From positions 221,829-285,828 of the forward strand of contig JBBHKE010000403.1 in NCBI GenBank assembly GCA_037447655.1: a stretch of 64,000 bases of DNA, given 5' to 3'. The notes beneath the pieces were generated by a model. The model ran no database searches and was not told the origin of the DNA. It worked only from the letters and a program-made list of their open reading frames with translations. The position numbers and the translations under genes are program-made. This DNA is from Zygnema cylindricum (lineage: Eukaryota; Streptophyta; Zygnematophyceae; Zygnematales; Zygnemataceae). Below, piece by piece: positions 1,903 through 52,237 of this stretch. Every line of letters starts with the position of its first letter. The first letter of the stretch is position 1.

Positions 1903-2162
1903 AAGGAGCTCATTGTCCTCGTCTTCGGATTCAGCCTCAAGTACCTGTGTGACAAGGGCCTTTTTCTTTCCTCTCAGGGTACCACCGGTCTGCCCCTCTT
2001 TTAACCAAGCTCGGTTAGCTTAGTGCACTCTGCCATATAGTGCCCCGGTTTCTTACAAAAATGACATAAACCTTTGGGAGCCCTTGGTTCGAACTCGTCA
2101 GCCTGTTTTTTTTGCTCCCTACCCCCATAGTTTAAGACTGGTTTCCGAGAATCCTTTTTCCT

Positions 2163-2963
2163 CTAGTCAGTCGCTGTTGCCAAAGCTTGGCCACTCTTTC
2201 CTCCCCTTCGGATCTCAATCGTATTCTCTCGAACGAGAATCATCCCTACCATTGAGTTCCATATCCACCTTGAGTCAGGCAAGTCCTTCACACGGTTGAC
2301 TATGTTCTCAAACTCATCAGGTAACTTCATTAGTAAACAGTTAACCTTTTCTTTTTCACTACAAACTTTTCCCGCACTCTCTAGCTCCATGAAGAGTGTA
2401 GCAAGCTCATTGCAAAAATCCAACATCTTCCCCCCTTTGTATACATACTCCTTAACTTTCTGATTAGCCAACTGTTGTTGCGTAATTGTACCAGTTCGGT
2501 ACATCTCTATGAGAGCCATCCAAAGATCAGATGCCATTTCTACCTGCAAATGAGGACATGCAAGTCCTTCATTGAGAAGGCGTAGGATGAAGTGTTTTGT
2601 CGCCATATTGTTGAAGTCCCAAATTTCAGTATCATTCTCCTCGTTCCTCGGAATAGGTGACATGAATGCCGAACTAGATGTTATTGGTGTGGTCGCCTTC
2701 TTCTCCTTTCCTTTGTCCACCACCTCTCCTTCTTTGGTTTCCTCCGTTGAAGTTGGATCCTCTTTTCTGGTTAATCTGCTTCCTCCAAACCCTGGAGGAA
2801 TTCCAAGACTTGATGGACGCCCCAACCGTCCACTCATTATCCCCCAAAACCTTTTTTCGCATAGAGCTCCTATCATCATACATTCCCAGTATATGAAGCC
2901 ACTTCCATTAAAGCTTGGTACCCTAGAAGGTGGGCCCATAACCTGAAACTGTGAGACCTCCAT
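2163..2963 (-). pseudogene. copia gag polyprotein remnant (element A)
   Basis: A 266-codon open frame starts at an ATG just inside the LTR and reads as a copia-type Gag (UBN2 family). The N-terminal part has a Pro-Pro-Ser-Arg-Val-Pro and Asn-Gly-Ser-Gly-Phe-Ile-Tyr-Trp stretch. The central part carries the conserved Leu-Trp-x-Ala-Leu-x-x-Met-Tyr (near residue 145) and the Leu-Leu-x-x-Leu-Pro-x-x-Phe. In this family Gag forms the virus-like particle. The frame stops at 2163, before the CCHC zinc knuckle that element B retains at about 7565-7610, so this copy lacks an in-frame nucleic-acid-binding motif. Confidence 0.8.
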
Positions 2964-2984
2964 AAGTCCTCAGAGTGGACAGCT

Positions 2985-4098
2985 TCCAAGAAGCCTCTAG
3001 GTTAACCCTGACCCTTTTGTGTTTCAGCAAAAATAACTGCCACGCTGGCAGACAAAAACTTGACCAACTTCACCCCTGTGAATACAAGACTCTCTGAGTC
3101 GATAGCAAAAAGAATCTCTGAAGTTGCTCCTCAGAGCAGTAAGTTATGGAGGGTCAAAGTTGACCTTTTGTATAGAAGCTTTCTGGGAGAGAGGGTCCTA
3201 TCTCCTAATTTTTCTAAGTCCTATCTCTCTCACAGACTCTATCTATTGATGTACGGAGCCAATTAGAATGCAGCTCCATACACAAAAATACAGCTGCCGG
3301 TGTACTTTTTGTACGAACCTCGTACGACATGGCCTAAATGTCGACACGTGGTTATCCGGATTCGCTCTTTTAATCCTCGGAGATGCTGCGATCCAATGTC
3401 ATTCCGCCACGTGTCATCCGATGTGGCGATGACCAAAACCGCCGAAATCTTCCTCCGCGATCTCGGCGCTAATCGCGGCCGTCCGATTAAATTCGGCTTT
3501 AATCGTAGCCGTAATAAATACATGCGCGGTATTTGTTTCATTTACGAAACAAATGCGCGGGTACTAATTTGTGTCCGTACCGTAAGTCGTACATTATATA
3601 TTACTGGTTCTATGTATCCCGTAATTCATTGCAGTTAAATGGTTTTTCGCACTTTATACATATTTAAATAACTATCAAACTATATGCTACGTAACACTAC
3701 CTCTAGACTAAACGGCTAAGGCTACCTGCTATTTCCTGTCTGCCGGCCGGTAGGTACCAGGATCAAATCCTGTCGCCGGCACATAACTTTTACTTAAATA
3801 AAAAAAACCCTAATATAAATTTCCCGTAAACCTCAGGATAGCCAAGGTAGCCATGGCTCTAGCTTCCTCTCCAATTAACTGCGACAAGTTTGAGAGTTGG
3901 AGAGAGAAGATAGAGATAGACTACCTCGACTTCTATATTTCTTTTCAGACCTAGAAAATACTAATAAAACCATTAATTTCTCAGTGACTGCGACAAGTTT
4001 GAAAAGTTGGAGAGAGAAGTTAGAGGTAGACTGCCTCGGCTTCTTTTTTATTTCTATTTAGACCTAGAAAATACTTTTAAAGACCATTAATTTCTACA
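2985..4098 (-). repeat. LTR shared by copia elements A and B
   Basis: About 1.1 kb that matches 8458-9476 base for base over most of its length. Its right end (5' end on the minus strand) is TGTAGAAATT, directly preceded on that strand by a purine-rich tract (AAATAAAGGGAG at 4099-4110) serving as the polypurine tract of element B. The left end is not sharply defined, because I could not recognise a standard initiator-Met primer-binding site between it and the gag ATG at 2963. One LTR lies between the two internal regions, so it is both the 3' LTR of B and the 5' LTR of A. Confidence 0.8.
3705..3783 (+). other. tRNA-like segment inside the A/B LTR
   Basis: A short stretch ends like a tRNA 3' half: a T-arm-like stem around GGATCAAATCC (one change from a Pol III B box) followed by CGCCGGCA. 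The same position of the other LTR (about 9190-9262) has the same layout in decayed form, and the C-family LTRs have a better match (11634-11644). It lies antisense to the retroelement. I cannot fold a full cloverleaf, so this is not called as a tRNA gene. Confidence 0.4.
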
Positions 4099-4407
4099 CT
4101 CCCTTTATTTTCTAGTCAATCTTTAATTTCAGACCACACTTTTCCCTGCAGAAAATTAGCTTATGGGAAGGCACTGGTTTGGTCATCATATCTGCTACCA
4201 TCTCACTATCTGGTCGGTACTCTAAGCTGATTATTTTGTTTTCTACTTTCTCTCTAACAAAGCTGAGTCTAATGTCCATGTGTTTAGCTTTAAAATGATG
4301 TTTGGGATTGGCAAAAATAGCGATTGCTGCCTGATTATCACAAAAAAATTCCGCACACCACTCTTAAGGTTACCAAGCTCACCAAGTAAAGACTTGACCC
4401 ATATCAA

Positions 4408-5623
4408 TTATTTTAGAGAAGAGCAAAAGGCCATATACTCAGCCTCCATGGTTGACTGAGCAATAATTTTTTGATGTTTGCTACTCCAACAATAAGCCCC
4501 ATCACCCACATATAATACATATCTAGAAGTGCATCTCCTCATCAGAGTATCACCATAACTGGCATCACTCCAAATAGTGATGTCAGTATTCTCCCCACCC
4601 AAATGCAACCATAGATCCTTAGTTCCTATCAAATATCTAAGGACTCTCTTAGTTGCCTCCCAATCCCTCTTAGTGGGAGCATTTAGATTTCTACTCAGCA
4701 CTGCTACAGCTGCAGCTAAATCCGACCGGGTACTATTCATAAAATAGATTAGACTTCCCACTACTTTTCTGTAAGGAATAGTCTGCATGATCTCTGCATG
4801 AACTTCTGTTCTTCAGGAGATAATTCCTCGTCTAAGACTATGACTCCTTCTTCCTCACTCCCCACACTTCCCTTCTTCAACTCCATTGGAGTTGTACAAC
4901 TATTAGCTTTATTAATCTGAAATTTTTCAAGCATGTTCCCTATTGCTTTCTTGTGAGTCAATCTTATAATCTTTCTTTTTCGATCTCTTTCTACTTGAAT
5001 TCCCAAAATATATTTTGCTTCCCCTATATCCTTCATTTCAAATCTCCCCTTAAGATTGGTTTTCAATTTATTATTTTTTTCCATTGATTTACTTAAAACA
5101 AGCAAATCATCAATATAAATTGCAATAAATATAATACCTTTTTCATTTCAAAAACATCGATTGAGTGATCTGAGCTGATCCGAATATATCCCAAACCGGT
5201 AAGAAACTCATCAAGCTTCTTATTCCATTGTCGAGGCGTCTGTTTCAAACCATAAAGAGATTTAATCAGCTGGCATACCTTGCTCTCCTCTCCTTCCTCC
5301 ACAATTCCTTCGGGTTGGCGCATGAAGATCTCCTCTTCCAATTCTCCATGCAAAAAGGTTGTCTTGATGTCCATCTGGTGCACCTCCATGTCTTTCGCTG
5401 CTGCGAGACTGAGAAGTATGCGGAAGGAGGGAAATCTGACGACCGGGGCAAAGGTTTCCTTGTAGTCAATTCCCTCCTTTTGGATAAATCTCTTTGCCAC
5501 TAATCGGGCCTTGTAGCGCTCGATTGTGTTATCTGGGTTCAGTTTTAATTTGAAAACCCACTTACAACCGATTGGTTTTCGGTTAGTTGGACAATCCACT
5601 TGCTCCCAAGTATCGGCTGCCAT
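4408..5623 (-). pseudogene. copia reverse transcriptase-RNase H remnant (element B)
   Basis: The RVT_2 domain is clear: Lys-Trp-Val-Phe-Lys-Leu-Lys, Tyr-Lys-Ala-Arg-Leu-Val-Ala-Lys, Met-Asp-Ile-Lys-Thr-Thr-Phe-Leu-His-Gly and Leu-Tyr-Gly-Leu-Lys-Gln. A frameshift near 5093-5140 falls exactly around the Tyr-Val-Asp-Asp catalytic box and separates it from Leu-Val-Leu-Ser-Lys-Ser in the next frame (5105-4761). The RNase H part (4788-4408) keeps Asp-Ala-Ser-Tyr and Ser-Thr-Met-Glu-Ala-Glu-Tyr-Met-Ala but stops early. It cannot give an active enzyme. Confidence 0.85.
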
Positions 5624-6334
5624 AATTCAGGCCATCTCCTCATTGAAGGCTATCTTCCACTGGTTTCTTTCTAGACAAGTCATTGCCTCTCCATAAGTCT
5701 GAGGTTCATCTTGATGAGATAGTTTTGTTACCTTGTTATTAACCTATTTTTCTTGCAATCTTTTGCTATTCTCCTTCCCCCCTCAAAATCTAAGGCCGGA
5801 ATAGATGGTTCTCGTGGATTCTTTCGAACAAACTCGGCTTCTCCCCTATCCGTTGATTGCGAATCAATTTCCACCACGTCTTCCACTTCGGGTAGAGTTG
5901 TCACTGGAGTTTCCACAGCCGAGTCCTTTTCGGTCTGATTTGTATCTGCAAGAATGTCATCTTCTCTAAAACCCGGATAGTTAGGGAGCTCAAAGTCATT
6001 GGAATTTTTTGACTCAAATCTGATTTTTACTGACTTTGTATATTTGAAGGGATCCACAGACTTTCCTTCATCCATAACTACTAGATGTTTTACTAATATT
6101 ATATCTTCTCTTTTTAGATCATAAACTCTATATCCTTTAACATCCTCATCATGTCCTAATAAGTATCTTGGTTTTCCTTTAGGATTTAGCTTCCAATTAG
6201 ACCGATCTGTATCTAGACTAAATACTTGACTGCCAAAAACCTTTAAGTGAGATAAGTCTGGTTTTCGGCCTGTCCATCTCTCATAAGGTGTTCGATCTTT
6301 TATAGCTGAAGTAAGAACTCTATTTTTGATGTAA

Positions 6335-8416
6335 TTAGCACAGTTCATTTCTTCTGGCCAAAACCTTTTTTCCTATCTTCTTATCTGACAACATACTTCT
6401 AGCACTATCACTTAGTGTTCTATTTAACCTTTCAGCTACCCCATTCTGTTCCGGGTTTTGTGGAACTGTCTTTTGGTGTTGGACCCCATCTTCCCTCATA
6501 AAATCCTCAAACTGGTTAGAAGTATACTCTCCACCATTGTCACTCCTTACTCTCTTGATTGGAGTTTCATGGAGTTTTTCGCTCCATGCTTTATATTGTC
6601 TAAAACAATCCTGAGCTTCAGACTTGTTTTTCAAAAAATACACTCGGGAATACCGAGATTAATCATCACTGATAGTCATCATAAATCCCTTCCCCTCCGG
6701 TGAGGGCACTTTAGCCGGTCCCCAAATATCTGTGTGTACTAGATCTAGAATTTTTTCTCCTTTATAGGTGGTTGTTTTAGGAAAGGGTAATCTGTGTGTT
6801 TTACCTTGAGCACATTAACTACAATCACTTATATTATCATTCTCACTAAACTTAATCCTTTCCACCATTCCCATCTTTTTCATCTCTCTTACTTTGTCTA
6901 GATTCACATGCCCAAGCCTCGTATGCCACATCATAATATCATGAACACGAGCATAATAAAGTTTCTTCTTTTCATTACTTAAATCCAACCTAAACATCCC
7001 ATGGCTACCTTTCTCAGCAATGAAATAGACATCCTCCTCAAACCGAGCAGCAAAGTCTCCTTCCCTAGTGCTAGTAAAAAAACCTTATCATCTAATACAG
7101 ATGTAGAGATGAGGTTTTTGTTCAGCTCCGGAATAAACATTACATCAGAGAATGTTACTATGGATGTCTTTCCTTCTACTAACACTTTCAAATCTACCGA
7201 TCCTACAAAAGTAGTGGTGACTATCTTTTTATCTCCGTACTCTATCGCTACTGTGGGAATATTTCTTATCTTAGTGAACGGGTGCCTATCCTTACACATG
7301 TGCATGGAGGCACCTGGATCTACAATCTAGCCTGCTTCACCTTTCAATCCACCGTAAACACATTTCTGCCTTCGTGGTATTTCGACCTCGTTTTTCGCCT
7401 CCAACTCCTCATCTAAAAGGAGCTCATCGTCCTCGTCCTCGGATTCCGCCTCATGCACCTGTATCACAAGGGCCTTTATCTTTCCTCTTGGGGTACCACC
7501 GGTCTGCCCCTCCTTTAACCGAAGCTCGGTTAGCTTAGTGCACATTGCCATATAGTGCCTTGGTTTCTTACAAAAATGACATAAACCTTTTGGAGCGCTT
7601 GGTCCGAACTCGGCGGTCTGATTTTTCAGCTCCCTCCCCCCATAGTTTCCGACCGGTTTCCGGGAATCCTTGATCCTCCAATCGGTCGCAGTTGCCAAGG
7701 CTTGGCCACTCTTTCCTCCCTTTCGGATTTCAATTGTATTCTCCCGAACGAGAATCATCCCTACCACTGAGTTCCATATCCACCTTGAGTCCGGCAAGTC
7801 CTGTACACGGTTGACTATGTTCTCGAACTCATCGGGTAACTTTATCAGTAAACAGTTAACCTTTTCTTTTTCACTAAAATCTTTTCCCGCACACTCTAGC
7901 TCAATGAGAGTGTAGCAAGCTCATTGCAAAAATCCAACATCTTCCCCTCTTTGTATACATACTCCTAACTTTCTGATCAGCCAACTGTTGTTGCTGAATC
8001 GTACCCACTTGGGTACATCTCTATGAGAGCCATCCAAAGATCGGATGCCCTTTCTACCAGCAAATGAGGACATGCAAGTCCTTGAGTGAGATGGCGTAGG
8101 ATGAAGTGCTTTGCCGCTATATTGTTGAAGTCCCAGGTTTCATTATGATTCTTCTCGTTCCTCGGAATATATGACATGAATGCCGAACCAGTTGTTATTG
8201 GTGTGGTCGCCTCCTTCTCCTTTCCTTTGTCCACCACCTCTCCTTCTTTTGTTTCCTTCCTCCAAACCGTAGAGGAATTGGAAGACTTGATGGACACCCC
8301 AACCGTCCACTCACTATCCCCCAAAACCTTTTTTCGCATAGAGCTCCTATCATCATACTTTCCCAGTATATGAAGCTAGTTCCATTAAAGATTGGTACCC
8401 TAAAGGGTGGGCCCAT
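6335..8416 (-). pseudogene. copia gag-protease-integrase remnant (element B)
   Basis: Gag is split into 8416-7977 and 7797-7327. The second piece holds a CCHC zinc knuckle (Cys-His-Phe-Cys-Lys-Lys-Pro-Arg-His...Cys). Just before the protease an in-frame stop replaces the Trp of the motif, and the active site reads Asp-Pro-Gly-Ala instead of Asp-Ser-Gly-Ala (7305-7330). The integrase core retains Ser-Asp-Asn-Gly-Gly-Glu-Tyr and Asn-Pro-Glu-Gln-Asn-Gly-Val-Ala-Glu-Arg (6335-6643). A stop also breaks the zinc-binding region near 6815. These lesions make it a pseudogene. Confidence 0.8.
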
Positions 8417-22694: not shown

Positions 22695-23088
22695 AAAAAT
22701 AATAACAATAACAGCAACATGACAATGACAATGACAGAACCATGGCAATTACCATGACCATGACAATGTTTGTGACAAATGACAATGAAAATGACGGCAA
22801 TGCCACTGACAATGTCAATGACAATGACAATAGAAATGGAAATGGAAATGACTATGCCAATGACAATGATAATGACAATGAAAACGACTCATGGAGATGA
22901 CGATGCCAACACTGATGCCAACGCCAATGACAGTGGAAGGACATTGATTACAAAGAAGACAATGACAATCACTACACTGACAATGGAATGACAATGACAA
23001 TGAAAATGAAAATGACAACGACAATGACAATGACAATGGCAATAACAATGACAATAAAAATGACGGTGACAAGGACAAGGACAAAGGA
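22695..23088 (+). repeat. Imperfect (GACAAT)n hexanucleotide array
   Basis: About 390 bp of degenerate tandem GACAAT/GAAAAT units. Repetitive open frames on both strands are by-products of the repeat. The array ends exactly where the 1.74-kb duplication (23090-24829) starts. Confidence 0.85.
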
Positions 23089-23089
23089 C

Positions 23090-24829
23090 AATGGAAAAAA
23101 AACCATGAAAACTTGCATTGTTCTGAACCACTTAGAAAAAATATTCAAACATGTTCATAAGAAACTTATGCATTACTGCACAAAAAATCAAAATTGTTGC
23201 GTCGGAGAACCAAATTAGCGCGGATGCAATTGTTTCTCACCCTGGTTTCAGACTCACCAGCCTGATTGGACGGAACCATCCCTAGTATTTTGTATCAAAA
23301 AAAACTAGGAACAAAAAAAATCCAAGCATGTTTTAAACATACAAGTGCTGTACGGAAATATCAACATTAGTACGGATGATGTACCAACCTGATTGGATAG
23401 GACCAGCCGTAGAGTTTTGCATCCAGTATATACTTATTGTAAATAATGACTGCAAAGCTGAGAGAAATCCAAATAATGACATAAAAGTAACTCACTAGAG
23501 CAGATCCTAAAAGAGATTGTTTGCCGCCGGACATCTCAGATTTTGCTATGGCTTGTACACTTTTTATGGCTTTATCCATGGCTTCTACTAGGGTTTTCCT
23601 GGGAGTTTTACAGGTTATTTATAGTTTATTTATAGTAATAGGGTTTTACCTCCCAGTTTTCACTAGGATTGTTACTAAGGTTTTAAAAAGGGTAATAATA
23701 ATAGCTTATAATAGCTTTATTGCAGAACGTTGGACATCTTTTGATCCATGGTATTACTTAAAAGCAGAAACCCTAAAAAAAAGTCAAAAAATGTCTTAAA
23801 AACTCCTAAAGAATACTAAAAAAAGAGTAGGAAAACTAAGAAAAACACTACAAAACACTGAAAAAAGAGTGGACAAGGTTAAGAAACGACAAACTGTAAA
23901 AGATTATAATTTGCTGAAAAAAGGAAGTACTTTGAATTAAAATCAAAAAATCTTGAGTAAAAACAAACAAAAACGGAAAAATAACAGATATGGTTGTAAC
24001 GGATAAAATGTACACTGAAACGCACGTGAGAACAGGAAAACAAAAAAAAATGTGACTTATTTTTGGTCCAAAGTACAAATGGGCCTGGAATCTATGTAAT
24101 ACCGTACGTCATTATTGAGCATAGGTATTTTCGCATGTGCTAAAGTTATAGTTATTTTCTGTCGTTTTCCTCCATAACTTAGAAAAAAACGAGAAAATCC
24201 GCAGCCGTACCAAAAAATAGAAATTTCCACCGTACAGGTTGCGTTACCCTGAAACTTTATACATACAGTAGTTTGTCGTCTAGCGCGATATAATTTGACG
24301 TTTAGCGCATTTCGACCCACTTTCGCGTCCTTTCAACACATGTTCAAACTTTACATCAAATCGCCTCGCGAGGTGACTTGAAATAAAGTCCAATAAAGTG
24401 AGCGAATAGGCAGACACTTTCGCACGTGTCTGCATTTTTTTACATTTTTTGTGCGCTGAGTACCAAAAAGAAACACACTGCACGTTTCCAGCATGTGCGT
24501 AATGTTTTGCGTGCGCTGATCCGTACAGGGGGCGTCTCTCTCAAAAGCACGTGTCTTCACACATACGGCGTATGAAAAACATTGGCCACTTGTCGGCAAG
24601 TGGGAAGACGATAAACGAAACCGCAAATTCTGTGCGACAGCGAAAGGTATTTAGGGTTTCGACACGTCGACAATGTGGCGTACGGACATTACGAAGTCAC
24701 AAAAATTGTACAGCGTGCGGAGAAACGCCTCAAATTGAAGGCGAGTGGAAGTTTCGCCTCATTTTATGTACCACTTCATCTGTCACAATTCTTCGTACAC
24801 GTCTACGTAAGTCACTTTTTTAAGTGACA
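23090..24829. repeat. 1.74-kb duplication, copy 1
   Basis: Apparently identical to 31093-32832: seven open frames of the same length and sequence recur at a constant offset of 8003 bp. It contains the first exon of a translocator-like gene (23385-23579, minus) and, at its right, a Harbinger-like repeat segment. Immediately past the right edge (24830 and 32833) the copies are still homologous but clearly diverged. Left flanks are unrelated: the GACAAT array here, AG-rich sequence at copy 2. Confidence 0.9.
23385..23579 (-). pseudogene. Triose-phosphate-translocator-like first exon, copy 1
   Basis: Sixty-five codons from an ATG at 23579 to a potential donor (Leu codon, then GTACAT). The sequence [12 protein letters not shown], then [10 protein letters not shown], Leu-Tyr-Gly-Trp-Ser-Tyr-Pro-Ile, is the first transmembrane helix region of the plant TPT/nucleotide-sugar-transporter family (Trp-Ile...Ser-Phe-x-Val-Ile-x-x-Asn-Lys-Tyr-Ile-Leu-Asp). 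Family members exchange sugar phosphates or nucleotide sugars across organelle membranes. I see no following TPT exon on the minus strand, so this is probably a captured or truncated exon. A decayed echo of its 3' end lies at 23257-23297. Confidence 0.65.
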
Positions 24830-25127
24830 TGTTATTTGCGTGTACATTTGAATGCTCTGAAAGTTGTACGGAGAATATTCGCTAAAAAAAAAAGTAACAA
24901 GACTAAGTTTCGGTTACATGCGAAAATACCCTGGCAACGACGTAGTTACTTAAGCGTGTGACGATTGTATACGCTGACAATGCCCGTGACGGCTATCGAC
25001 GTCTACAATCTGTGATGACGCACGTTTTTTTTTGTAGCATCTTGTGACGTCGCATGAGTTTTCGTGACATTGTAGACGTACCGCCATCCAGTCTGTGCCC
25101 TTTTACGGTTGAAGAAGATGCATTTTG
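24830..25127. mobile_element. Harbinger-like repeat debris
   Basis: Homologous to 46430-46545 and to the interior of the element at 45646-46422 (for example the segment with GTATACGCTGACAATGCCCG). It is the left part of the resident repeat into which the hAT-like element at 25128 inserted. Confidence 0.5.
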
Positions 25128-30966: not shown

Positions 30967-31092
30967 CTGGAGGGTGAAAGAAAAAAAAAGGGCAAAAAAT
31001 TTTAAGGGAAAAAAGAAAAAAAAGAGGCAAAATGTTTGAGGATGAAAGAAAAAAAGACAAAACGTCGGGGAGGAAGAAAGAAAAAAAAGGAA

Positions 31093-32832
31093 AATGGAAA
31101 AAAAACCATGAAAACTTGCATTGTTCTGAACCACTTAGAAAAAATATTCAAACATGTTCATAAGAAACTTATGCATTACTGCACAAAAAATCAAAATTGT
31201 TGCGTCGGAGAACCAAATTAGCGCGGATGCAATTGTTTCTCACCCTGGTTTCAGACTCACCAGCCTGATTGGACGGAACCATCCCTAGTATTTTGTATCA
31301 AAAAAAACTAGGAACAAAAAAAATCCAAGCATGTTTTAAACATACAAGTGCTGTACGGAAATATCAACATTAGTACGGATGATGTACCAACCTGATTGGA
31401 TAGGACCAGCCGTAGAGTTTTGCATCCAGTATATACTTATTGTAAATAATGACTGCAAAGCTGAGAGAAATCCAAATAATGACATAAAAGTAACTCACTA
31501 GAGCAGATCCTAAAAGAGATTGTTTGCCGCCGGACATCTCAGATTTTGCTATGGCTTGTACACTTTTTATGGCTTTATCCATGGCTTCTACTAGGGTTTT
31601 CCTGGGAGTTTTACAGGTTATTTATAGTTTATTTATAGTAATAGGGTTTTACCTCCCAGTTTTCACTAGGATTGTTACTAAGGTTTTAAAAAGGGTAATA
31701 ATAATAGCTTATAATAGCTTTATTGCAGAACGTTGGACATCTTTTGATCCATGGTATTACTTAAAAGCAGAAACCCTAAAAAAAAGTCAAAAAATGTCTT
31801 AAAAACTCCTAAAGAATACTAAAAAAAGAGTAGGAAAACTAAGAAAAACACTACAAAACACTGAAAAAAGAGTGGACAAGGTTAAGAAACGACAAACTGT
31901 AAAAGATTATAATTTGCTGAAAAAAGGAAGTACTTTGAATTAAAATCAAAAAATCTTGAGTAAAAACAAACAAAAACGGAAAAATAACAGATATGGTTGT
32001 AACGGATAAAATGTACACTGAAACGCACGTGAGAACAGGAAAACAAAAAAAAATGTGACTTATTTTTGGTCCAAAGTACAAATGGGCCTGGAATCTATGT
32101 AATACCGTACGTCATTATTGAGCATAGGTATTTTCGCATGTGCTAAAGTTATAGTTATTTTCTGTCGTTTTCCTCCATAACTTAGAAAAAAACGAGAAAA
32201 TCCGCAGCCGTACCAAAAAATAGAAATTTCCACCGTACAGGTTGCGTTACCCTGAAACTTTATACATACAGTAGTTTGTCGTCTAGCGCGATATAATTTG
32301 ACGTTTAGCGCATTTCGACCCACTTTCGCGTCCTTTCAACACATGTTCAAACTTTACATCAAATCGCCTCGCGAGGTGACTTGAAATAAAGTCCAATAAA
32401 GTGAGCGAATAGGCAGACACTTTCGCACGTGTCTGCATTTTTTTACATTTTTTGTGCGCTGAGTACCAAAAAGAAACACACTGCACGTTTCCAGCATGTG
32501 CGTAATGTTTTGCGTGCGCTGATCCGTACAGGGGGCGTCTCTCTCAAAAGCACGTGTCTTCACACATACGGCGTATGAAAAACATTGGCCACTTGTCGGC
32601 AAGTGGGAAGACGATAAACGAAACCGCAAATTCTGTGCGACAGCGAAAGGTATTTAGGGTTTCGACACGTCGACAATGTGGCGTACGGACATTACGAAGT
32701 CACAAAAATTGTACAGCGTGCGGAGAAACGCCTCAAATTGAAGGCGAGTGGAAGTTTCGCCTCATTTTATGTACCACTTCATCTGTCACAATTCTTCGTA
32801 CACGTCTACGTAAGTCACTTTTTTAAGTGACA
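31093..32832. repeat. 1.74-kb duplication, copy 2
   Basis: Same orientation as copy 1 (23090-24829), offset 8003 bp, apparently 100% identical by the matching of all open frames. Right of 32832 the sequence stays related to copy 1 for about 100 bp but with many differences (GTATTTGCGTTTACATCCG versus GTTATTTGCGTGTACATTTG). Confidence 0.9.
31388..31582 (-). pseudogene. Triose-phosphate-translocator-like first exon, copy 2
   Basis: Identical 65-codon exon to 23385-23579, with the same initiator and donor. The only candidate exon to its left (30758-30966) does not look like TPT sequence. Since both copies are identical the frame has had no time to decay, so its openness is not evidence for function. 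Confidence 0.6.
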
Positions 32833-34912
32833 AGTATTTGCGTTTACATCCGAATGTTCAGAAATCTGTACGGAGAATCTTTGCTAAAACACAAAGTAGC
32901 AAGACTAAGTTTCGGTTACATGCGAAAGTACCCTTAGTCTTTACAGATATTTTATATGTACATAAAATATACATATAAAATACTAATATTTTTTATTTTT
33001 GACTACAAAGAATCGTAATAGCTCTTCTCCATATCGAATAAAAAATAGTATTACGTATATTGGAATTTCCGATATTACGATATATTGAAATCGTCATGGT
33101 TGACAATGATTGGTTGATTCGTGACAGAACTGAACCTGATGAAACGATATATATTTTATTTTAACGATATATATTTAATGATTTATTTTTTTAACCAGCA
33201 GTTTTCTAATTTGGTGGGAGCTATTTTCGCCTTCTTGGTTTTACTATATAAACTTCATTGTACCCTGTTTTGTGATACGTACACAAAATTACAAGAGGCG
33301 TAAATTTAAAAAGAGGACAGGGTTCGTACGGAGATTTACGGTACAAGGCAGAAAAAGACAAGAAGTCAAGATTCAATATGTTTCTTGTGGACAATCTGAT
33401 AATCAATAAAGTGCGAGGCATATGAAGTTATGAACCTTTTCAAGCTTTGCGTATGAATACGTATTTAAACTGTTCCGTACATATCGGACGTGCCCTGTTG
33501 GGGGAAACCTTTTCGGCTTTTCGTATGCCTGAAAATGTACTGCGAACCGCTGCACGGTCTTTTACACGTGTAAATTCTGTTATTGAGTGGTAGAAATTTG
33601 TAAGCATGCGTCACCCGGGCTTGTAAGTGGCTGAGCATCGATTATTCCTAGTGAAGGTTTTATTTTTATTTTATTTTTTATTTTTTTTTATTTTCGTACC
33701 TTAAAATCTGGGAAATGTTTTTTTAATTTGATGCGTAGCAAGCCATACGTGCCAGAATCGTCCAGTATTGGCTTAATCAATTTTCGTGCAAATATTCCGA
33801 GGATTTCCACTTTTTCTGTAAATTGTGGAGAGGAAGTTTCCAGTATTACAGTACCGTAGTGGTATTAGACATTGGGGGGAGGTCCTATTTGGCGGGCGGC
33901 GGAGACCTTCGAGGAGGATTTTGCCCGGGCGATGTAAATCCCTCCCAGTTATTGATAAGGACAGAAAATTATCGCGCGAAGCGCGGAGAAATTTTTTTTA
34001 AGAGTCTCCTCGCGGATTAGGTCAGATGGACATGAAAAAAAAAAAAAAAGCAAAGTGTTCATACTCAAAGCGTTCTCATATAGAGCATTCGCCACAAATA
34101 ACGTCACGCGCGTCATATGAGAACATGTAAATCGCGTTCGCGACTCAAAATATCTCCATATTATAATCAGCGTTCACACTTTAAGCACTATCATTCAATC
34201 CGTCGAACAATTGAGTCGCGCGTCAAGTGAGAACACTTGTACCTTTACCATTAAAAACAAAAAAAAAAATTAGCCGCGTGTTACGTGAGAACACTTCACG
34301 TATGACATTAAAAACAGCAAAAAAAAAGTACAGTCATATTGTCGTCGTTTGGCGCCGCAGGCGATTTTTTTTTTAGTACGCTACGTGAAATGCGGATCAT
34401 ACGCGGAGAGTATAAAAATATCTTACGGTCATTATTGGAGTAGTATTTTGAAAAGAGGAGAAGGTATTTCGAAAGCGGAGAAGTATATTTAAATTTCTGA
34501 AGTACAAGACAAATCCGCGTGTACAATTTACTTTCTCCAAAATGTGACGTTATTTATCGATTTTCGTACGGTCGAAATTGAAAATCCGTACTTTTCAATG
34601 TAGATTAACTCTCCTCGCGGATGTCCGTACGTGGTAATGTTGAATTCCGTACTCTTCAATGTAGATTACCTCTCCGCGCGAATTCCGTACGCTCCGTACT
34701 CTCTAATGTACATTAACCCTCCGCGCGAATTTCGTACGCTCAAATGTGAACTAACTTTTTTTCAGTATGTATCGCAAATGATTACGTTACAAGTTGTATT
34801 TTTTTTAAACGTAAGTAACTATTTGTCGTACTACGTTAATTAATTTATTACGTACGTTTTAACCATAGGTTTTGAATTCCGTTTTAACGTATCTAGTGTT
34901 AAAACCTACAGC
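32833..34912. other. Intergenic, no gene seen
   Basis: No supported frame. It contains an AT-rich palindromic patch (32945-32985), a C/G-rich patch at 33860-33990 (GCGCGAAGCGCGGAG), and about three imperfect ~70-bp tandem units at 34560-34750 built on TCCGTAC...TTCAATGTAGATTA...CTCCGCGCGAA. Confidence 0.5.
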
Positions 34913-35060
34913 TAAATTTTACGGCTTATTTTTATCCTACAGCCTAGGCTTATCCTACAGCTTAACCTTAAATCCTACAGCCTAACCCTAAATCCTACAG
35001 CCTAACCTTAAATCCTGCAGCCTAACCCTAAATCCTGCAGCCTAACCTTAAATCCTACAG
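34913..35060 (+). repeat. Telomere-like short tandem repeat upstream of the Crypton
   Basis: Seven or so units of about 19-20 bp with the core CCTAACCCTAAATCCTACAG, drifting between CCTAACCTTAA and CCTAACCCTAA. It ends about 175 bp before the chosen start codon of the recombinase gene. Confidence 0.8.
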
Positions 35061-35234
35061 TTTTGTATTTCTATTTTTGTATTATTTTTCTTGTTTTTAT
35101 TTCATCTTTTTTTATTCCTTTACTTGTTTTCTTTAAACTCTTTGCTTTTAAATTAAACTTTTTAAATATTTTTCTTATTGTTTTTGTTTTATTATGTTTA
35201 TTTCTTTTTCTTCTTCATAAAAATTTTCTTTTCA

Positions 35235-38200
35235 ATGTTTTCTTGGCGTAAAGGAATTTTCCAAATTTTACCTAGAATTGTATCAGGGCTTACATTTGGA
35301 AACTGTCAAAAAATTGTTCATTTAGAAGATGACGATAACAATGTAGGAATAAATAACCCCCCACAATATACTGAATCAGATAGAGCACGAATCATCAAAG
35401 ATACATTAAAAAAACGTAATCCAAACACAGAATTAGCTTATCGAGTTGGTTTAAATCGGTATGCAAATTTTTGGGAGGCACAAGGACACCCCAATGTAGC
35501 TATTACACCTGATGGGGTTATAGGACTATTAGAGAACAACAAAGATAAAAGTTATACCACACTCATACAATGGGTGAAAGGTCTCCAAGACTCATATAAA
35601 ACGCAATTAGCCATAAAAGGAGGGGGTGGTAAAAGCCTTAGAGACAACAATATTATCCAAAAACTTTTACAAGAATCTAAAAAAAATACATCAAATTTTA
35701 AAAAAAATAACCATGAAGACCGCCAAGAAGGCATACGAGAAGCCTATTCTCTCGAAGATTACAAAGGTTTTTCAACATTTTGGTTGGAGTTGGCGGAAGG
35801 AAAGCACAAAGAAAAAAAATTGGGGATGGAACCATACACCAGCATTCAAGTGAGGTATGAATTGATAAAAATACGAAATCTTGTATTCCATGTTTTTTAT
35901 TTATGTTGTTTTTTACTTTAGTTTTTTACTTTACAATTTATTTTATTCGGTGTGTTATGGGCAATTTTTATTTTTTTGACAAGAGTAATACATTCTTTTA
36001 AAAGCTTCCATTATATTTGTAACATTGTCATTTTTTACGTTTGTGTTATTTTGTTTATTATTTTTGTCATACATTTTTTGGGTTTTTTGATTAAATATGC
36101 ATTTTCGTCAAAGAAAGCTTTCACTATTTTTGTAACATTGTCATTTTTTGTCTCTTCGATCGTTTGTTTTTGTCTTTTGTAGGAGTCAATTTATTATGAA
36201 CCATGCGTGTCTCAGTCGTGGCGATGATTCCCGAAATGCTCAGTTAGCGGATGTTTTTTCGTATGATCTTCCTTATCTTGGGCCGGACAAGGGTTATGTT
36301 TTGGCGATGGTTACAAGAAATGGGAAAACTAATACAGTAAGTAATCTTTAAAAACTGGAGCTTTAACGAAATTGTGTATTTTTTTTATATTTCGTACATA
36401 ACGTTAAATCAAATTTTACTAATTTTTTAGGGTTTCTTTTATGGTATTTCTTATCCGCAGAATGGTCGTGCAGAATTTATTGGATGCATGCGCCACTTGG
36501 ACTTTCTTATTTGTCCGGTAGGTGCTGTGGCCCAACAGTTTTTTTGGAGGTGGGAATTAGCTACAAATAAAAACGCAGTTCCCAAATTTACGACGAAACA
36601 AACTTGGTATGGGGAACCCTTCACGGAAGGGAGAGTTCTAGCGAAAGATGAAGAAGGAAAAGAAACACCGTTCATGCAGCCTCTTTGCTATAATACACAG
36701 TTTCAGTACATAAAAAAAACATTCAAAACCAAAAATATTTCCTTATCACATAAAACCCATGCTGGACGTGGTCAAGGAGCGACAATGTTGGCAACCGGAG
36801 GGTGCGTTTTTGTAAACTTATCATTTCATTTGATTTTTTCATGCATTTATTTTAAATAATCAAGTTTTGTTATGTATGTTTTAATTTTCCAAATTTGATT
36901 TTTCTTTATGGTAAATATTTCAGTGCTGATCGAGAAGCCATCAAAGTGATGGGACGTTGGACGTCCGACCATTTTTCGTATTCGTATGTCACGGATTTGC
37001 CGACGGACATTCTACTTCAAGCTTCCGGCCACGAAAACAACACCAGAAAATATTTTCTACCACGTTCCAGAGTGAAACCCCCTACTACTCTTTGTGCTAT
37101 GTTTTGGCCGTGGGTCGAAACGGCATATGCTGAGCTGCCAACGGTATGTTTAAAACAATTCTCATCATTTATATCATTAAACTTTGTGTTGAGTAATATT
37201 TTCTGTTTTATGTTCGTCACATTTCCTTTATGTTATTCCACTTTTTGTTATATGTATATTGGTTTTTGTTCTATATTTTGACCTTTTTTTTTGTTTTTTT
37301 TTTTAATTTCGTTTTTTTTTTGTCTTTTTAATTGTTTTTTCTATGTTTTCAATTGTTTTTTTTTTTTAAGTTGTTTTTCATACATATACATATTTTTTAG
37401 TGATAATTTGTTTTCCTCTATTTGTTTTTTTTATTTTTTTTTTCTTTCCTTCTCCCATTTTTTTTTCTTTTTTTTTCTCTCTCCGTCATATTATTTTTTT
37501 GTTTTATATCTAATAAATTATTCTTCTATTAAAAACATACAAATGTTTTTTTGTGCAGAAAAATGCTCGAGCTCCAAAATCAGAACGAGATTTAAGCGCC
37601 CAAAATTTTCTTCAAACTATGTTATGGCTAAAAACCGTGTTTTTACAAGATCATGTTTTTTTCCAAGATTTATTTCCTGATCTTCCCATCTTCAAACACA
37701 AACTATTCCAATCACATTTATGGTTGTCGTTCAAAGATGAAGTCAAAAAAACTTGTTTTGAAGCATCACACATGTGGGCTTCAATTGCAGATGCCGAAGC
37801 AAATGTGCCGATCACTATCTCACAGGTGGGAAAATCAGTCGATTCGCTATTCATGTGGAGTCAAACTTGTGGAAGAAAAATTGATTTTATTGCCGAAGAA
37901 ATGTGTTATGTAAAAGAGACAGTTTCGAGTTTGGAAGACAAAATGTGTCATATAGATGAGAACTTAAAAGAGAAAATGTGTAATATAGAAGAGAAATTAA
38001 CCCATATTACGCAAATGATGAACGGTCACGGAGAGGCGTTGTATGAAAGACAACCCTTTCAAAATCACCATAGACCAGATCAAAACAGACCATCAGAAGG
38101 TGAATCGTCTATGGGAATCGGGACTCCTGACCATAATCCTCTTCAAACTGAAGGCGACCGAGATGAAACCCATGTAGACACGGCAAGAACAACTGAAGAA

Positions 38201-38545
38201 TTTGCACCTCCTGTTCCATCAAATGAAAACTCGAATCAAGTTCCTTTGATGACACAAATTGGGGCTCGACTGCACACGGTCAAAGATGTGTGGGAAGCAT
38301 ATAACGATGGTATAGGTGGACTCCCTTCCATCGCGAAATTGGAAAAAAGTGGAACTAGTTGGAGGAAAGGAGAATCTCGGATGTTTTATAATTGGAACGT
38401 CATCTTGGTAGAAGTTAAAAGAATAGCAAAAGTGAATAAAGTATCATTGAGTACGGCATTAGACACATTGCACGATCGTCAATGCGCGAACAAATGGAGT
38501 CTGCGGGACATATCAAGAAGATTAGCGACCGAAAACAAAAAATAG
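35235..38545 (+). CDS. Crypton tyrosine recombinase with coiled coil and GCR1_C-like domain
   Basis: Five exons, 35235-35854, 36183-36336, 36431-36801, 36924-37143 and 37559-38545, join in frame with consensus GT/AG ends to 783 codons. Residues ~60-207 form the core-binding region. The catalytic domain has Ser-Arg-Gly-Asp-Asp-Ser-Arg (Arg219), Lys-Thr-Asn (256-258), Cys-Pro-Val-Gly-Ala (286-290), His368-Ala-Gly-Arg371, Gly-Arg-Trp394 and Tyr403 in Ser-Tyr-Val-Thr-Asp-Leu-Pro. These are the Arg / His-x-x-Arg / Trp / Tyr set of tyrosine recombinases, in the context typical of Cryptons. A heptad-like coiled coil with repeated Lys-Met-Cys follows, then a hydrophilic linker. The last ~88 residues (696-783) resemble the GCR1_C DNA-binding domain carried by fungal and oomycete Cryptons. 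Cryptons move as DNA circles by site-specific recombination. The start was chosen at 35235 because upstream in-frame codons are T-rich intergenic. No stop or frameshift was found. Confidence 0.85.
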
Positions 38546-38959
38546 CTAAATTGAAGTTTGCGGAACTTTTTGGGCATTTGTTATAAATGCGTTTTTTTTT
38601 AGTTTTTCAAACTTTGTAGAAACATATAATGTTTATTTAAGCTGATTTTTTTAGAAATTCAAACTCGCGTAATGTGTTTGCTTATAGTTTTATTATTTTA
38701 GGGTCATTGTATGTTTATGTTTTATTTGTTTTTTTATTTTATTTAGTACAGACCTTAAAATTGCATTACCTTTTTTTTTTTCGATAAAAAAAAAACGTGT
38801 AACCTTTAATGTTGTCGAAGTTAATGTTTTTTGTATTCTATTTCACAAAAAATCCAATTTCATTAGTATTCACAATATTTGCTGTCTAATGTGTTTTTAT
38901 CATCAAGTTGGATATATTCTACAGACACTAATTCTATGTGTATATGATTTTATTTTTAT
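38546..38959. other. 3' flank of the Crypton gene
   Basis: AT-rich, no gene. Probably the 3' untranslated and terminal part of the element. I could not fix its end: Cryptons lack inverted repeats, and the short direct repeats at their ends cannot be told from chance here. Confidence 0.4.
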
Positions 38960-39985
38960 TATTTTTATCGACAATTACGTTAGGTTGAAAATTTTTGGTT
39001 AATGATTTTTTGTTTATAAAACAAACTATAACTTAACTCAAAACAAATATAGCTTATCTATCATGGTCGATGAAAAATGTAGGCATTGTGTTTATCAAAC
39101 ATAATATGCTTGAAACATTGTAAGATAGAAAAACAAAAACATCGATCGCAGGGTTAAAATTTGTTATATTGTTTGTTTTGTGATACTACAAAACAAAATA
39201 GAAGCAATGACTAACAATTCGCATCCTTTATTTGGTTTTTTTTTATACATGCGTTTTGTCGAATATTTAATCGGATATTTCATTTCATTATTTTTATCAA
39301 CGATTATGTTAGATCAAAAAAATTTAGTTAATATATTTGGTATATACAACAAACTATAACGTAACACAAACGAAATACAGTTTCTCTATTATGGTTGATA
39401 AAAATGGAAGTCTTTTTATTTTGTGTATGGTTGATAAAAAATGAAGTCGTTACACTTTGTCAAACTTAATAAGGTTTGAAACATTCTAAGATACAAAAAT
39501 CAGTGTATCGATCGTGGGAGTAAAATTCCTACAATTTTTCCTTTTGTGGTACTATGAGAGAAAATTAAAGCAACGGCTAAATATTATCATCGTTTATTTG
39601 GTTTTTTTTTTATAAATGCCTTTTGTGGAATACTTAATCCGGTATTTCATTATTTTATCAACAATTACGTTAGTTCAAAAAGGTTAAGTGAATGTTTTTG
39701 ATTTATGTATAACAAACTATAACTTAACACAGACCAAATAGAATTTCTCTATGATGGTCGATTAAAAATATAGTCGTTGTGTTTATCAACCTTAAAAGGC
39801 TTGAAACATTGTAAGATAGCAAAAACGATAGCATCGACCGTGGGAGTAAAATTTGTTCTACTTTTTGTTTAGTGATACTGTAAAACAAAATAGAAGCTCG
39901 ACTAACTATTCTCATCGTTAATTTGGTTTTCTTTTTGTTATAAATCCCTTTTGTCCAAGATTTAATCGGATAACTAATGTATTTT
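38960..39985 (+). repeat. Three diverged tandem ~340-bp units
   Basis: Units start near 38967, 39295 and 39656, each with TTATCRACRATTAYGTTAG. Each then runs through ACAAACTATAAC, TGGT(C/T)GATGAAAAA, GAAACATTGTAAGATA, a GATCGNNGGAGTAAAAT block and TTTATTTGGTTTTTTTTT...TAAATGCCTTTTGT. Identity is partial. No coding potential. The array lies directly downstream of the Crypton gene. Confidence 0.75.
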
Positions 39986-40225
39986 TTTTAGTATTTATGT
40001 TATATTATATATAAATGTTGCATTATATTACGATTAATGCATAACAATATATTTAATTGAGCAACATTAAAAATATATTGGCGAAGGGGACCAAAAAAAT
40101 AATTAATTAAAACAACCTTATGGCCGCTAAGGACCAACCGACCAGCCGGCAGATAATTGAGTGATTAACTACTCTATTTTAAGTAGCAGCGTATCGAAGA
40201 GATTGACGATATAGGCGTAATGGTA

Positions 40226-40600
40226 CACCGCCAATCGCTATTAGGGTAGTGTACGCTAATTCCGTCCCGCTTTTTTTTTATTATTCTCAAATAGCGTAGT
40301 TTATTCTATTTTTTTGTTTACTCTATTTAGGGTTGTTTTCCAAGTACCGTACAAAACGAAAGTACGTTGACTTGTCTCTTAAATAGAGTGGTGTACAGTC
40401 AGTATCAGACCGTACATAAATGTACTTTTTAAATTTAAAAACTACAATATATTAGTTTGAGTAACCGCGGACGCATGAGAATGTGCGTTCTAAAAAATGA
40501 AAAATATCAAGTCGTGAAAAATCCCGTTCGCACATATTAGTCCGACAGCCGCGATTCGACAGTGTGAACGTACATGTAGTTAAATTTTAAATCGTTCGTT
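40226..40600. mobile_element. Mariner-like MITE of the ~540-bp type, right end missing
   Basis: Left terminus CACCGCCAATCGCTATTAG preceded by TA. The interior shares the GTACGTTGACTTG...CGGACGCATGAGAATGTGCG type of sequence with the 47165, 47959 and 50497 copies. No complementary right terminus was found before the microsatellite at 40716. Confidence 0.6.
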
Positions 40601-40715
40601 TGAGGTATGGTAAAGGAAAAGTAAAGCAACGTATAACTAATTATTAGATTTTGTATGTTTATTTTTTCAAATGCTTTTTTACACAATGTTGTTTAAAATT
40701 ATTACAAAATTATGT

Positions 40716-41160
<445 letters not shown>

Positions 41161-41162
<2 letters not shown>

Positions 41163-41569
41163 TTTGTTAATTTATATCATATTTAGTGTATGTTATATGT
41201 TATCACTATATTAGATGTTATATATATTAAATTTCATTATATTATATTATATCTTTTTATATATTGTTATATTATATTGTATTGTAATGTGTATTAAAAT
41301 GTTGCAAAAATTTAACGATAGATTAATTTTATTCGACTAAATAGATTAATAAACAGACTGATTAAAATAATAGTATCGGTAATGAGGTTTAAACGCCCTA
41401 AGTGGTACACTGTCATAAAATTAAAATCGTATCGGTAATAGGGTCGGAGTAATAGGGTAACGACAACATTTTGTTTTCTTAGTGTTTTATTTCATTATTT
41501 TTTTAAGGGGAGGAATAATTGGTTTTTTTTACATAAAATTGAAGCGCTTTAAAAAAATTGAAGCATTTG
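41161..41569. other. Intergenic, no gene seen
   Basis: AT-rich sequence adjoining the microsatellite. Nothing recognisable. Confidence 0.5.
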
Positions 41570-41835
41570 AACATCGGCCGTCGCTGAACGGCCTATTTAT
41601 CTGGTTGCGTCCTCCCGCGAGACGTCGTACGCTGCCAGCTAGGACAGGTATACCTGGCCCGGTGACGTATTCGCGGGCCAATTCCAAATGTGTCGAACCG
41701 GCATCCGCGGGAGTCTCCGCGAGGTTATCCGGCGGCCGACGTTATTCTCCTCGACCCTCCGCGAGTCTCCTCGTTTCGGCCTGTACCGGCCGTCTGCCGC
41801 CGTTTGCTCTCCGCGCGAAGCAGTATACCGTAATA
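41570..41835. other. GC-rich, CpG-rich island
   Basis: About 265 bp with strikingly high GC and CpG content inside AT-rich DNA, with repeated CTCCGCGAG and GGCCGNCG words. Both strands are open for more than 70 codons, as expected for stop-poor GC-rich sequence, but no family is recognisable. It lies about 370 bp upstream of the predicted gene at 42206 and could be its promoter region or a captured fragment. Confidence 0.5.
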
Positions 41836-47164: not shown

Positions 47165-47704
47165 CACCGCGAATCGTTATTAGTGTCAAAGTTTAAATAG
47201 TGTTGAAGAAAATTTACCGTAATTGATGCTAATTAAGAATTAGATTTTTTTCAAAAAAAAGGTGTATTCTAATTTCGGCGTTTATGCTAATTTGGGAACA
47301 GCAAAAATTGAATAATTGTTGTACGATTATATACATTAATATATGTATCCATACAAAACATTAGAAATCGTACGCCGTCGTGAAATTTAAATATCCGTAC
47401 ATGTCAGACTAATTAACGTGTCAGAATAATCCGGTTTTTGAGCGCACGTTCCCTATGCGTGCGCGTCTGATTTAATTCATTTTTTGTAAAATTTTCACTT
47501 GAAAAGGTACATGTATGTACGGTCTGACATCGACCGTACACCATACTATTTAGATCTTATTGTACTTTCGTTCTTTACGTTTTTTTGTACGGTACCTTTA
47601 TTAACCTCAAAGAAAAACTAAAATCATGTATCCTATTTGAGGAAAAAAATCAAAATTTTAAGAACCCAAATTAGTGACTTTGACACTAATAACGATTCGC
47701 GGTG
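47165..47704. mobile_element. Mariner-like MITE, 540 bp, TA TSD
   Basis: Termini CACCGCGAATCGTTATTAG and its complement CTAATAACGATTCGCGGTG, TA on both sides. The interior differs from the 217-bp type but is shared with 47959-48518 and 50497-51035. Non-coding. Confidence 0.85.
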
Positions 47705-47958: not shown

Positions 47959-48518
47959 CACCGTGAATCGTTATTCGTGTAAAGGTTTCTTTAGCGTGTA
48001 GGAACAATTACCGTTATTTACGCTAATTGAGAATTTGGATTTTTTCAAAAAAAACATACATACTGGATATTTACTTATACTAATTTGGATTTAAAAAAAT
48101 TTAAACACCCGCCCCAAACTTGTTTACACTAGTATAAGTTCTGTTCAAAATCTGACAAATTGTACACAAATCGTACGTTCACACAGTCGAAATGCGGTTG
48201 CCGGACGAATATGTGAGAACGTGATTTTTGACAACCCGATTGCATCCCCTTTTTAGAGCGCATATTCTCATGCGTCCGTGGTTACTAAAACCCATTAAAT
48301 ATACTTTCTCACTTAAAAAGGTACCATTTCGTACGGAAATATCCTGTCCGTACGCCACACTATTTCCATCGCAGTGTACTTCCATTATTAACGCTAATTG
48401 AAAAAAAAACCCTAATTATAATAATAGAAAATATAGAATTTTGGATTGTATTTTGGGATTTTTTTTTGAAAAAGGGGCACCGAATTGGCGTTATTTACTC
48501 TAATAGCGATTGACGGTG
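47959..48518. mobile_element. Mariner-like MITE, 560 bp, TA TSD
   Basis: Termini CACCGTGAATCGTTATTCG and complement CTAATAGCGATTGACGGTG with flanking TA. It ends only 7 bp before the next MITE begins. Confidence 0.85.
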
Positions 48519-50496: not shown

Positions 50497-51035
50497 CACC
50501 GTCAATTGCTATTAGAGTAAAGGAATAAATAGCGTAAAAAAAAAATAGTGTTATTAACACTAATCAGGATTTTTTTTTTGTTTGAAAAAAAAAATATATA
50601 CTAATTAATTCCTAACTGTAATTTGGGTTGTCCTGAATAATAAATACCCGCCCTTTCAATGTCTACAGTAATATGTGTATTCGTACAAAATCTGACAATT
50701 CGTATGCCGTCGCGCTGTTCACACGGTCGACGGATGAACATATGAGATTGTCGACGAGTTTGTATCTCTTTCTTCCATTGCACATTCACATGTGTGCGCA
50801 ATAACGTTAAGTGTCTTTTTATGCCTTTGTTATTCAAAAAGTACCATTTCGTACGGAAATATCATGTCCTTACGCCACACTATTTCCATTGCATGTACTT
50901 TCATTATTAACGCTAATTGAAAAAAAACCCTAATTAGAATAATGGAAAAAATAGAATTATGGATTGTATTTCAGTTTTTTTTTTGAAAAAAGGGCACCGA
51001 ATTAGCGTTATTTACGCTTATAGCGATTGGCGGTG
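50497..51035. mobile_element. Mariner-like MITE, 539 bp, TA TSD
   Basis: Termini CACCGTCAATTGCTATTAG and complement CTTATAGCGATTGGCGGTG with TA at 50495-50496 and 51036-51037. Interior homologous to 47165-47704 and 47959-48518. Confidence 0.85.
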
Positions 51036-52237
51036 TACCGCACTTTTCGACTGATGGAACGCCACCCTAAGTTACAATTAGGGTGGACTTCCATTAGGCG
51101 TCCCAGTGATTGTACGAAAAATTGTACTGAAGGGCGTGCCTTCCATTAAGTCGAGTCTGTAACCCTGTGTACCTCATTCTGGTTGGTAGCACTAGGTTGA
51201 TATTCGATGCTTAAAATCTTGAAAGAATCTTCGAATGCAATGTCAGAACGCAATATCTGTACGAGCGGAGGAGCGGAGGTAATATCTGTACCAGCGGAGA
51301 TAATATCTGTACCAACGGAGGTAATTAATGACTGGTACAGAGGGCATTAAATGTACTACCCAAAATTTAAAAACGCAACGACAAAATGGCGGCGGCAAAC
51401 TTTGATGGTGGGAGCGTGACGGGATAATTTCGGCGGATTCGCAGCCACCCTGGCGGAAGGCACATGGCCCTTGCGACGTGTACGCACATACGCGCGCGCT
51501 CATCGTGGATTCATTTTATCTTTTCCACGCGGCCTATTTTTACACGTTCTACTGTGCACGGTCTTAGAAAACTGTAGTGTTGGTGACGTGGCGTCACGGA
51601 TATAAAGTATAATTGAATCTGACGGTCCTAATTTACGCCTACAACCTTGGAAAATTTTCTGTAATGTTGTTTTCGTTGATTTTTTTTTGTACGAATTTGT
51701 TCGAAACGGTACGGCCCTCAGTAAAAATCCCCACTTTTTCGCTAATGGAAGTCCACATGTAGGAATACCTTAAATGATATTGCCCCGTCCTCCTCTCCAC
51801 GTGTTACTTCATCCCTCTGGCACGTGTTGCCTCAACATTCTCGCCGCGTGTCACCTCTTTTCCTCATTTCCGCACGTGCTGGATTTGAAACTTACATATA
51901 AAAAACGTCACGTCACGTAACTGGGAGTGAAACGTCTTAACCCGTTTCCGAAATTAATACCATCCAACGTAACCCTAAAAAGCGGAAGTACAACCAAAAT
52001 TTACCGAATAACCCTAACCCTAAAAATAAAAGTGAAAATAAATAAAAAAGAAAATAGAATAAAAAAGAAAATAGAATAAAAACGAAAATAGAATAAAAAA
52101 GAAAATAGAATAAAAAAGAAAAAAAATAAAATTAAAAAAGAAAATAAAATAAAAAAGAAAATAGAATAAAAAAGAAAACAAAATAAAATAGAAAGTTGCA
52201 CCTGCGTCCTTCCGAACCCTAAAGCTGACGTGGCACC
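51036..52237. other. Upstream region of the NUDX19-type gene
   Basis: It contains a 9-bp-stem hairpin CCACCCTAA...TTAGGGTGG near 51069-51095, a tandem of three ~23-bp units (TAATATCTGTACCAGCGGAG) at 51248-51325, and an A-rich array of AATAAAAAAGAAAATAG units at 52021-52195 just before the gene. No TATA box stands out clearly. Confidence 0.5.

Follow-up and report, generated by a model that had tools for sequence, protein, structure and literature searches.

A young, apparently autonomous CryptonF-type DNA transposon in the genome of the streptophyte Zygnema cylindricum

The stretch of Z. cylindricum DNA analyzed here (64,000 nucleotides, bases 221829–285828 of contig C312; hereafter "the window") belongs to assembly GCA_037447655.1 (G000), which comprises 352,776,454 bases in 2689 contigs. 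Cryptons are a rare kind of mobile gene, best known from fungi and water moulds. The window very probably carries a CryptonF-type DNA transposon that inserted recently and looks autonomous, a member of a family with multiple copies in this streptophyte genome; its single gene is spliced, and the encoded tyrosine recombinase has GCR1_C as its C-terminal domain. Judged from its sequence, the window copy looks complete as well as young, has well-defined ends, and may still be able to move.

A preliminary description had proposed that five exons join in frame over 783 codons, and this proves to be exact: the joined exons (35235–38545) give 2352 nt, or 783 codons and a stop, and all four introns are GT-AG. 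Random codons of the same base composition would contain about 54 stops per 783 codons; the observed frame is open. In a Pfam search, the joined protein matches NDC10_II, a domain derived from tyrosine recombinases (127.1 bits, E = 9.8e-37, residues 204–507, a stretch that crosses all four exon junctions) and GCR1_C (38.8 bits with a cut-off of 23, E = 1.1e-9, residues 692–760), which agrees with the Crypton identity first put forward. Exons 3, 4, and 5 each pass the curated NDC10_II cut-off separately and at successive profile positions (neither exon 1 nor exon 2 does so by itself), and this supports the splice model without recourse to RNA. The positions named earlier as catalytic (R219, H368, R371, W394, and Y403) are all found, and they include the tyrosine-recombinase tetrad R219, H368, R371, and Y403, assigned by position and motif; Tyr403 lies nine residues C-terminal of Trp394. 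Phage_integrase scores 14.9 bits on the joined protein, under its cut-off of 27.1, which counts against the CryptonF-type reading, and Phage_int_SAM_1 scores 12.4 bits, also under its cut-off. Among solved structures no recombinase was matched at E up to 1 by the whole protein or at E up to 10 by residues 1–453, a PHROGs search returned three weak matches with no integrase family among them, and exon 5 folded alone has a mean pLDDT of 45.9.

Table 1. Features of the Crypton element and its target-site relative (positions in the window)
Feature	Position	Strand	Remarks
Whole Crypton element, with a nested insertion inside	33852–41830	+	7979 bp including both terminal cores
Left terminal core TACCG (putatively target-derived copy)	33852–33856	+	Homology start among aligned copies
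20-bp tandem repeat, 5' non-coding part of element	34934–35060	+	Tandem Repeats Finder, 6.4 copies
Exon 1	35235–35854	+	Weak match to an N-terminal SAM-like (core-binding) domain, under its cut-off
Exon 2	36183–36336	+	Catalytic Arg219 (RGDD)
Exon 3	36431–36801	+	NDC10_II profile 82–178; His368 and Arg371
Exon 4	36924–37143	+	NDC10_II profile 189–264; Trp394 and Tyr403
Exon 5	37559–38545	+	NDC10_II profile 271–313 (its end), 33-bp tandem duplication, C-terminal GCR1_C, stop
Unit of about 345 bp in three diverged tandem copies, 3' non-coding part	38947–39990	+	Unit also present in other copies
Stretch absent from most compared copies	40226–41565	.	40226 to about 40570 common to L016 and L017; remainder includes a TA-rich microsatellite
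Right terminal core TACCG	41826–41830	+	Homology stop among aligned copies
Unoccupied relative of L028 target site, core GGTACCG once	47590–47596	-	Lies between the two aligned flanks of L028

The extent originally reported for the element, 35235–38545, covers the gene exactly, but the whole element is larger. When 20 copies fetched with their flanks are aligned to the window, homology runs from about 33852 to 41830 and the flanks differ between copies, so that the ends of the element are placed there (Table 1). Inspection by eye shows no terminal inverted repeats at these ends. Open frames of at least 100 amino acids that lie between these ends but not in the gene reach at most 162 amino acids, and the longest of these is a TA repeat. 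The left flank of the window copy (33550–33856) has a single match in the genome, namely itself. The repeat at 40226–40573 inside the element, common to the window, L016, and L017, resembles the inverted stretches 48157–48365 and 50895–51039. Other repeats in the window include Copia-like tandem stretches at 1–2743 and 5514–8257 (within 1–8257; 91% identical, with broken frames) and direct repeats of 1850 bp at 23083–24932 and 31086–32934 that are 99.1% identical and 6.2 kb apart. The latter pair looks like the LTRs of a young element with no recognized gene; inspection of its flanks showed no clear target duplication.

A genome-wide search for copies and for empty sites had been proposed as a check. 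Across the 352.8-Mb assembly, the DNA of the gene is matched at least 81 times, on 39 contigs (a lower bound, with 40 of 192 first-look candidates scored), and the best match outside the window is 97–98% identical to it. Profile searches of the assembly give 60 matches to NDC10_II and 50 to GCR1_C, some of them at places absent from the list of DNA matches; neither profile matches any of 14 control genomes, but these controls offer no positive control. In a tree of 18 rows with a midpoint root, the window copy groups with L016–L018 with support of 100/100. Two subfamilies are set apart by indels of 33 nt and 15 nt, each a multiple of three, which are found in nine of nine subfamily-B copies. 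One of the profile matches absent from the DNA list, L056 (G000:C623), has four stretches 29–51% identical to the protein encoded in the window, with similarity that breaks near the window's exon borders, and on these protein similarities it represents a second, divergent family of Cryptons in this genome.

The ends of the element were sought in the 20 fetched copies and in 20 short stretches taken around the expected ends of further copies. Twenty-six left ends were seen, three of them truncated (L024, L031, and L055); all 23 of the others have the final G of the core and 12 have TACCG exactly. The right end has an exact TACCG in 14 of 17 cases. The background rate of TACCG in the window is 0.00054 per strand-base. 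The left-end count excludes fetched copies whose alignment stops short of that end (L022, L023, L025, L026, and L034), the right-end count likewise excludes L018, L019, L023, L024, and L026, and nine of the 20 short stretches had no end and are uncounted (no match in L037, L041, L042, L043, L046, and L049; a match elsewhere in L045, L047, and L050). Left cores are variable among copies and right cores nearly constant, as would be expected if the target supplies the left core.

Three unoccupied relatives of target sites were found, each with a single core; these sites (in the window, L018, and L033) are related repeats and not alleles. The left core of L028, GATACCG, is not identical to the GGTACCG of its relative in the window. 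For L020, the two flanks align around 9375–9379 of L018, where ACTACCG is present once, and also around 565–571 of L033, where AGTACCG is present once; the left core of L020 is the same as that of the unoccupied site in L033, and its right core resembles the element's TATACCG. The core mismatch of L028 and the 11 of 23 left cores that depart from TACCG count against the explanation favored here. Insertion positions within the same repeat families are shared by the left flanks of L018, L020, L048, and L051 and by those of L021 and L054, and repeat families hit repeatedly at one position look like preferred targets. At L040 (G000:C990:135702–136502) a left end of the element directly follows a right end in a head-to-tail array, in which stubs of the left end (27 to 67 bp) and right end (about 29 bp) lie between the junctions with the same order repeated. 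The left core at L040 is among the 23 counted above, and its odd internal right junction was left out of the right-end count. The stubs may be mini-derivatives or the outcome of repeated insertion into the same core.

By analogy with other tyrosine recombinases, and following the proposal for Cryptons described in PMC3212892, we infer that the enzyme would recombine the two TACCG repeats and so release the element as a circle; Tyr403 would be the likely nucleophile, and GCR1_C would perhaps help to bind element DNA. The circle would then re-insert by strand exchange at a TACCG-like core, leaving a left core that derives from the target and a right core supplied by the element. The head-to-tail junctions at L040 are compatible with such a circular intermediate. 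Where the circle would be joined, a 5-bp inverted repeat, ATACC/GGTAT, was spotted by eye, and no argument here is built on it.

The element is assigned to the CryptonF type by its domain layout, since NDC10_II followed by a C-terminal GCR1_C is the layout published for that group, in which a tyrosine recombinase precedes GCR1_C and the terminal direct repeats are 4 or 6 bp long (Kojima and Jurka 2011, PMC3212892). The direct repeat here, TACCG, is similarly short at 5 bp, and long terminal inverted repeats are not seen. Several copies at unrelated places together with unoccupied sites are taken as the mark of a mobile CryptonF, and both are seen here, the unoccupied sites being in related repeats. 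The present element differs in that its host is a streptophyte, whereas the CryptonF hosts given in PMC3212892 are fungi and oomycetes (the host table there for Cryptons as a whole has fungi, animals, oomycetes, and a diatom), and in that it is present at about 40 places with long non-coding flanks that bear tandem repeats. The yeast genes Ndc10/Cbf2, Gcr1, Msn1, and Hot1, described in the same paper as host genes derived from CryptonF, share the NDC10_II and/or GCR1_C domains; the catalytic site is reported there not to be preserved in Cbf2 and Gcr1, which are host genes, whereas the element in the window keeps the tetrad and has ends and copies.

Other eukaryotic elements with tyrosine recombinases fit less well. 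DIRS, Ngaro, and PAT elements share the recombinase but encode a reverse transcriptase, and DIRS-type and PAT-type elements have been reported in Viridiplantae (PMC4157794). Judged by frame length, no frame outside the gene in 33852–41830 is long enough for a reverse transcriptase, and a DIRS/Ngaro retrotransposon was set aside. Starships, the giant cargo-carrying elements of Pezizomycotina, are likewise DNA moved in eukaryotes by a tyrosine recombinase, the captain, whose domain is DUF3435; this domain is not among the four Pfam families that match the joined protein at E up to 1. No relatives were found in IMG/VR by a protein scan or among plasmids. A scan of IMG/VR with a degenerate motif, built from the window's own residues and those of fungal Cryptons, gave seven loci that are unrelated by tblastn (best E 2.4), and 13 pattern matches in prokaryote genomes included no relative. 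The preliminary description knew of no well-characterized streptophyte Crypton, and none is described among the literature matches listed, which come mostly from outside subscription journals and exclude Repbase (among them PMC3537659, PMC11630846, PMC4157794, PMC3627910, PMC9406493, and PMC12220804). An automatic annotation of soybean counts 535 "Crypton" items but does not describe them (PMC8729191). The element is of a known kind, in what is apparently a new host group.

When the 21 copies read are spliced as in the window, only the window copy is open. Each of the other 20 has a stop, a frameshift, or both; L028, with one stop and no frameshift, is the least damaged, and L023–L025 lack large parts. 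Stop counts exclude a 3-nt end column of subfamily B and a 1-nt column beside intron 2, and damage in subfamily B may be overstated because it may splice differently at intron 2, where the acceptor AG of the window is absent in eight of nine subfamily-B copies and a CAG lies two bases on in L026 and L033. Differences fixed between the subfamilies (61 synonymous and 51 non-synonymous, pN/pS 0.22; 22, 23, and 67 at the three codon positions) show purifying selection, and changes private to the 20 other copies (125 synonymous and 407 others, pN/pS 0.86; 187, 183, and 162) do so much less. These values, and an exon divergence from the window that is below the intron divergence in 20 of 20 copies, show that the source lineage coded under selection and that its copies decayed after landing. 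The private pN/pS of single copies ranges from 0.26 to 2.58, and this wide spread counts against the explanation favored here. Catalytic residues at codons 219 and 368 are lost in the dead copies L018, L021, and L025 as R219C and H368Y, changes that C-to-T would give.

The earlier description had left the choice between a mobile Crypton and a host-domesticated recombinase. A Crypton-derived gene kept open by host selection, like Ndc10, Gcr1, or the DUF3504 genes, might account for 783 open codons among 20 broken copies and for purifying selection in the lineage. The window copy itself gives no sign of it, with equal exon and intron divergence from its six nearest copies (14 private changes in 2313 exon positions, 0.6%, of which eight alter an amino acid and six are silent, versus 4 in 819 intron positions, 0.5%; Fisher p = 1; the counts over all 21 copies are 4/2256 and 2/743). 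No constraint beyond that of its introns was found in this comparison, and the insertion is young. It also lies between TACCG-cored element ends in unique DNA, and it keeps its catalytic residues, most of which are reported lost in DUF3504 genes (PMC3212892). Domestication is very improbable, and the mobile half of the original alternative is favored by the many copies, the sharply defined ends that they share with their short direct repeat, the unoccupied sites, and the neutral divergence of the window copy. A recently landed relic that is already inactive, open because of its youth and moved in trans or silent, is a different matter and has an appreciable, though lesser, chance of being correct; it bears on whether the element is active now and does not conflict with its identity as argued here. 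Some of the eight private amino-acid changes could impair the window copy, and the dead copies suggest that ends alone may suffice for being moved. That this is the sole open copy known also counts against the explanation favored here. Against the relic, the open frame and its splice sites are present, as are all five catalytic positions, the two domains, and the core at each end.

Contamination had been raised as a possibility at the outset, and it is very unlikely indeed that the element entered the assembly from a fungus or oomycete. CryptonF has been described from fungi and oomycetes (PMC3212892), and in a nematode survey one Nasonia Crypton match near an oomycete CryptonF was judged to be likely contamination (PMC4157794), but the 39 contigs with matches are all in a single assembly and one is 797,696 bases long, and the flanks of copies match repeats in the window and at the loci of other copies. 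The window also holds a DUF547 gene and, at 53 kb, a NADH-pyrophosphatase zinc-ribbon exon (25.4 bits, cut-off 24.8), near a NUDIX-like stretch at 52 kb that scores 20.3 bits, below its cut-off of 22; we take this NUDIX gene to resemble plant NUDT19. The genome had been called plant-like, and the assembly indeed contains 10 matches to the LOB domain (best E 7.1e-36). LOB/LBD genes are, to our knowledge, confined to streptophytes and thus point to a streptophyte host. The LFY SAM domain PF01698 has no match in the assembly or in any of the 14 control genomes and is hence uninformative.

We suggest tentatively, and at somewhat short of an even chance, that CryptonF lineages peculiar to streptophytes have long resided in them, with at least two present here (29–51% identical in protein over the compared stretches), and that one of these might still be moving, guided by the 5-bp TACCG core and inserting next to itself into head-to-tail arrays. 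If so, introns in the genes and the lack of inverted repeats at the ends may be why plant annotation has missed elements of this kind. The element extends the range of CryptonF into the plant lineage, in a family of multiple copies with readable ends, target core, and unoccupied sites, and an open copy in a photosynthetic host bears on whether Cryptons have moved sideways between fungi, oomycetes, and plants.
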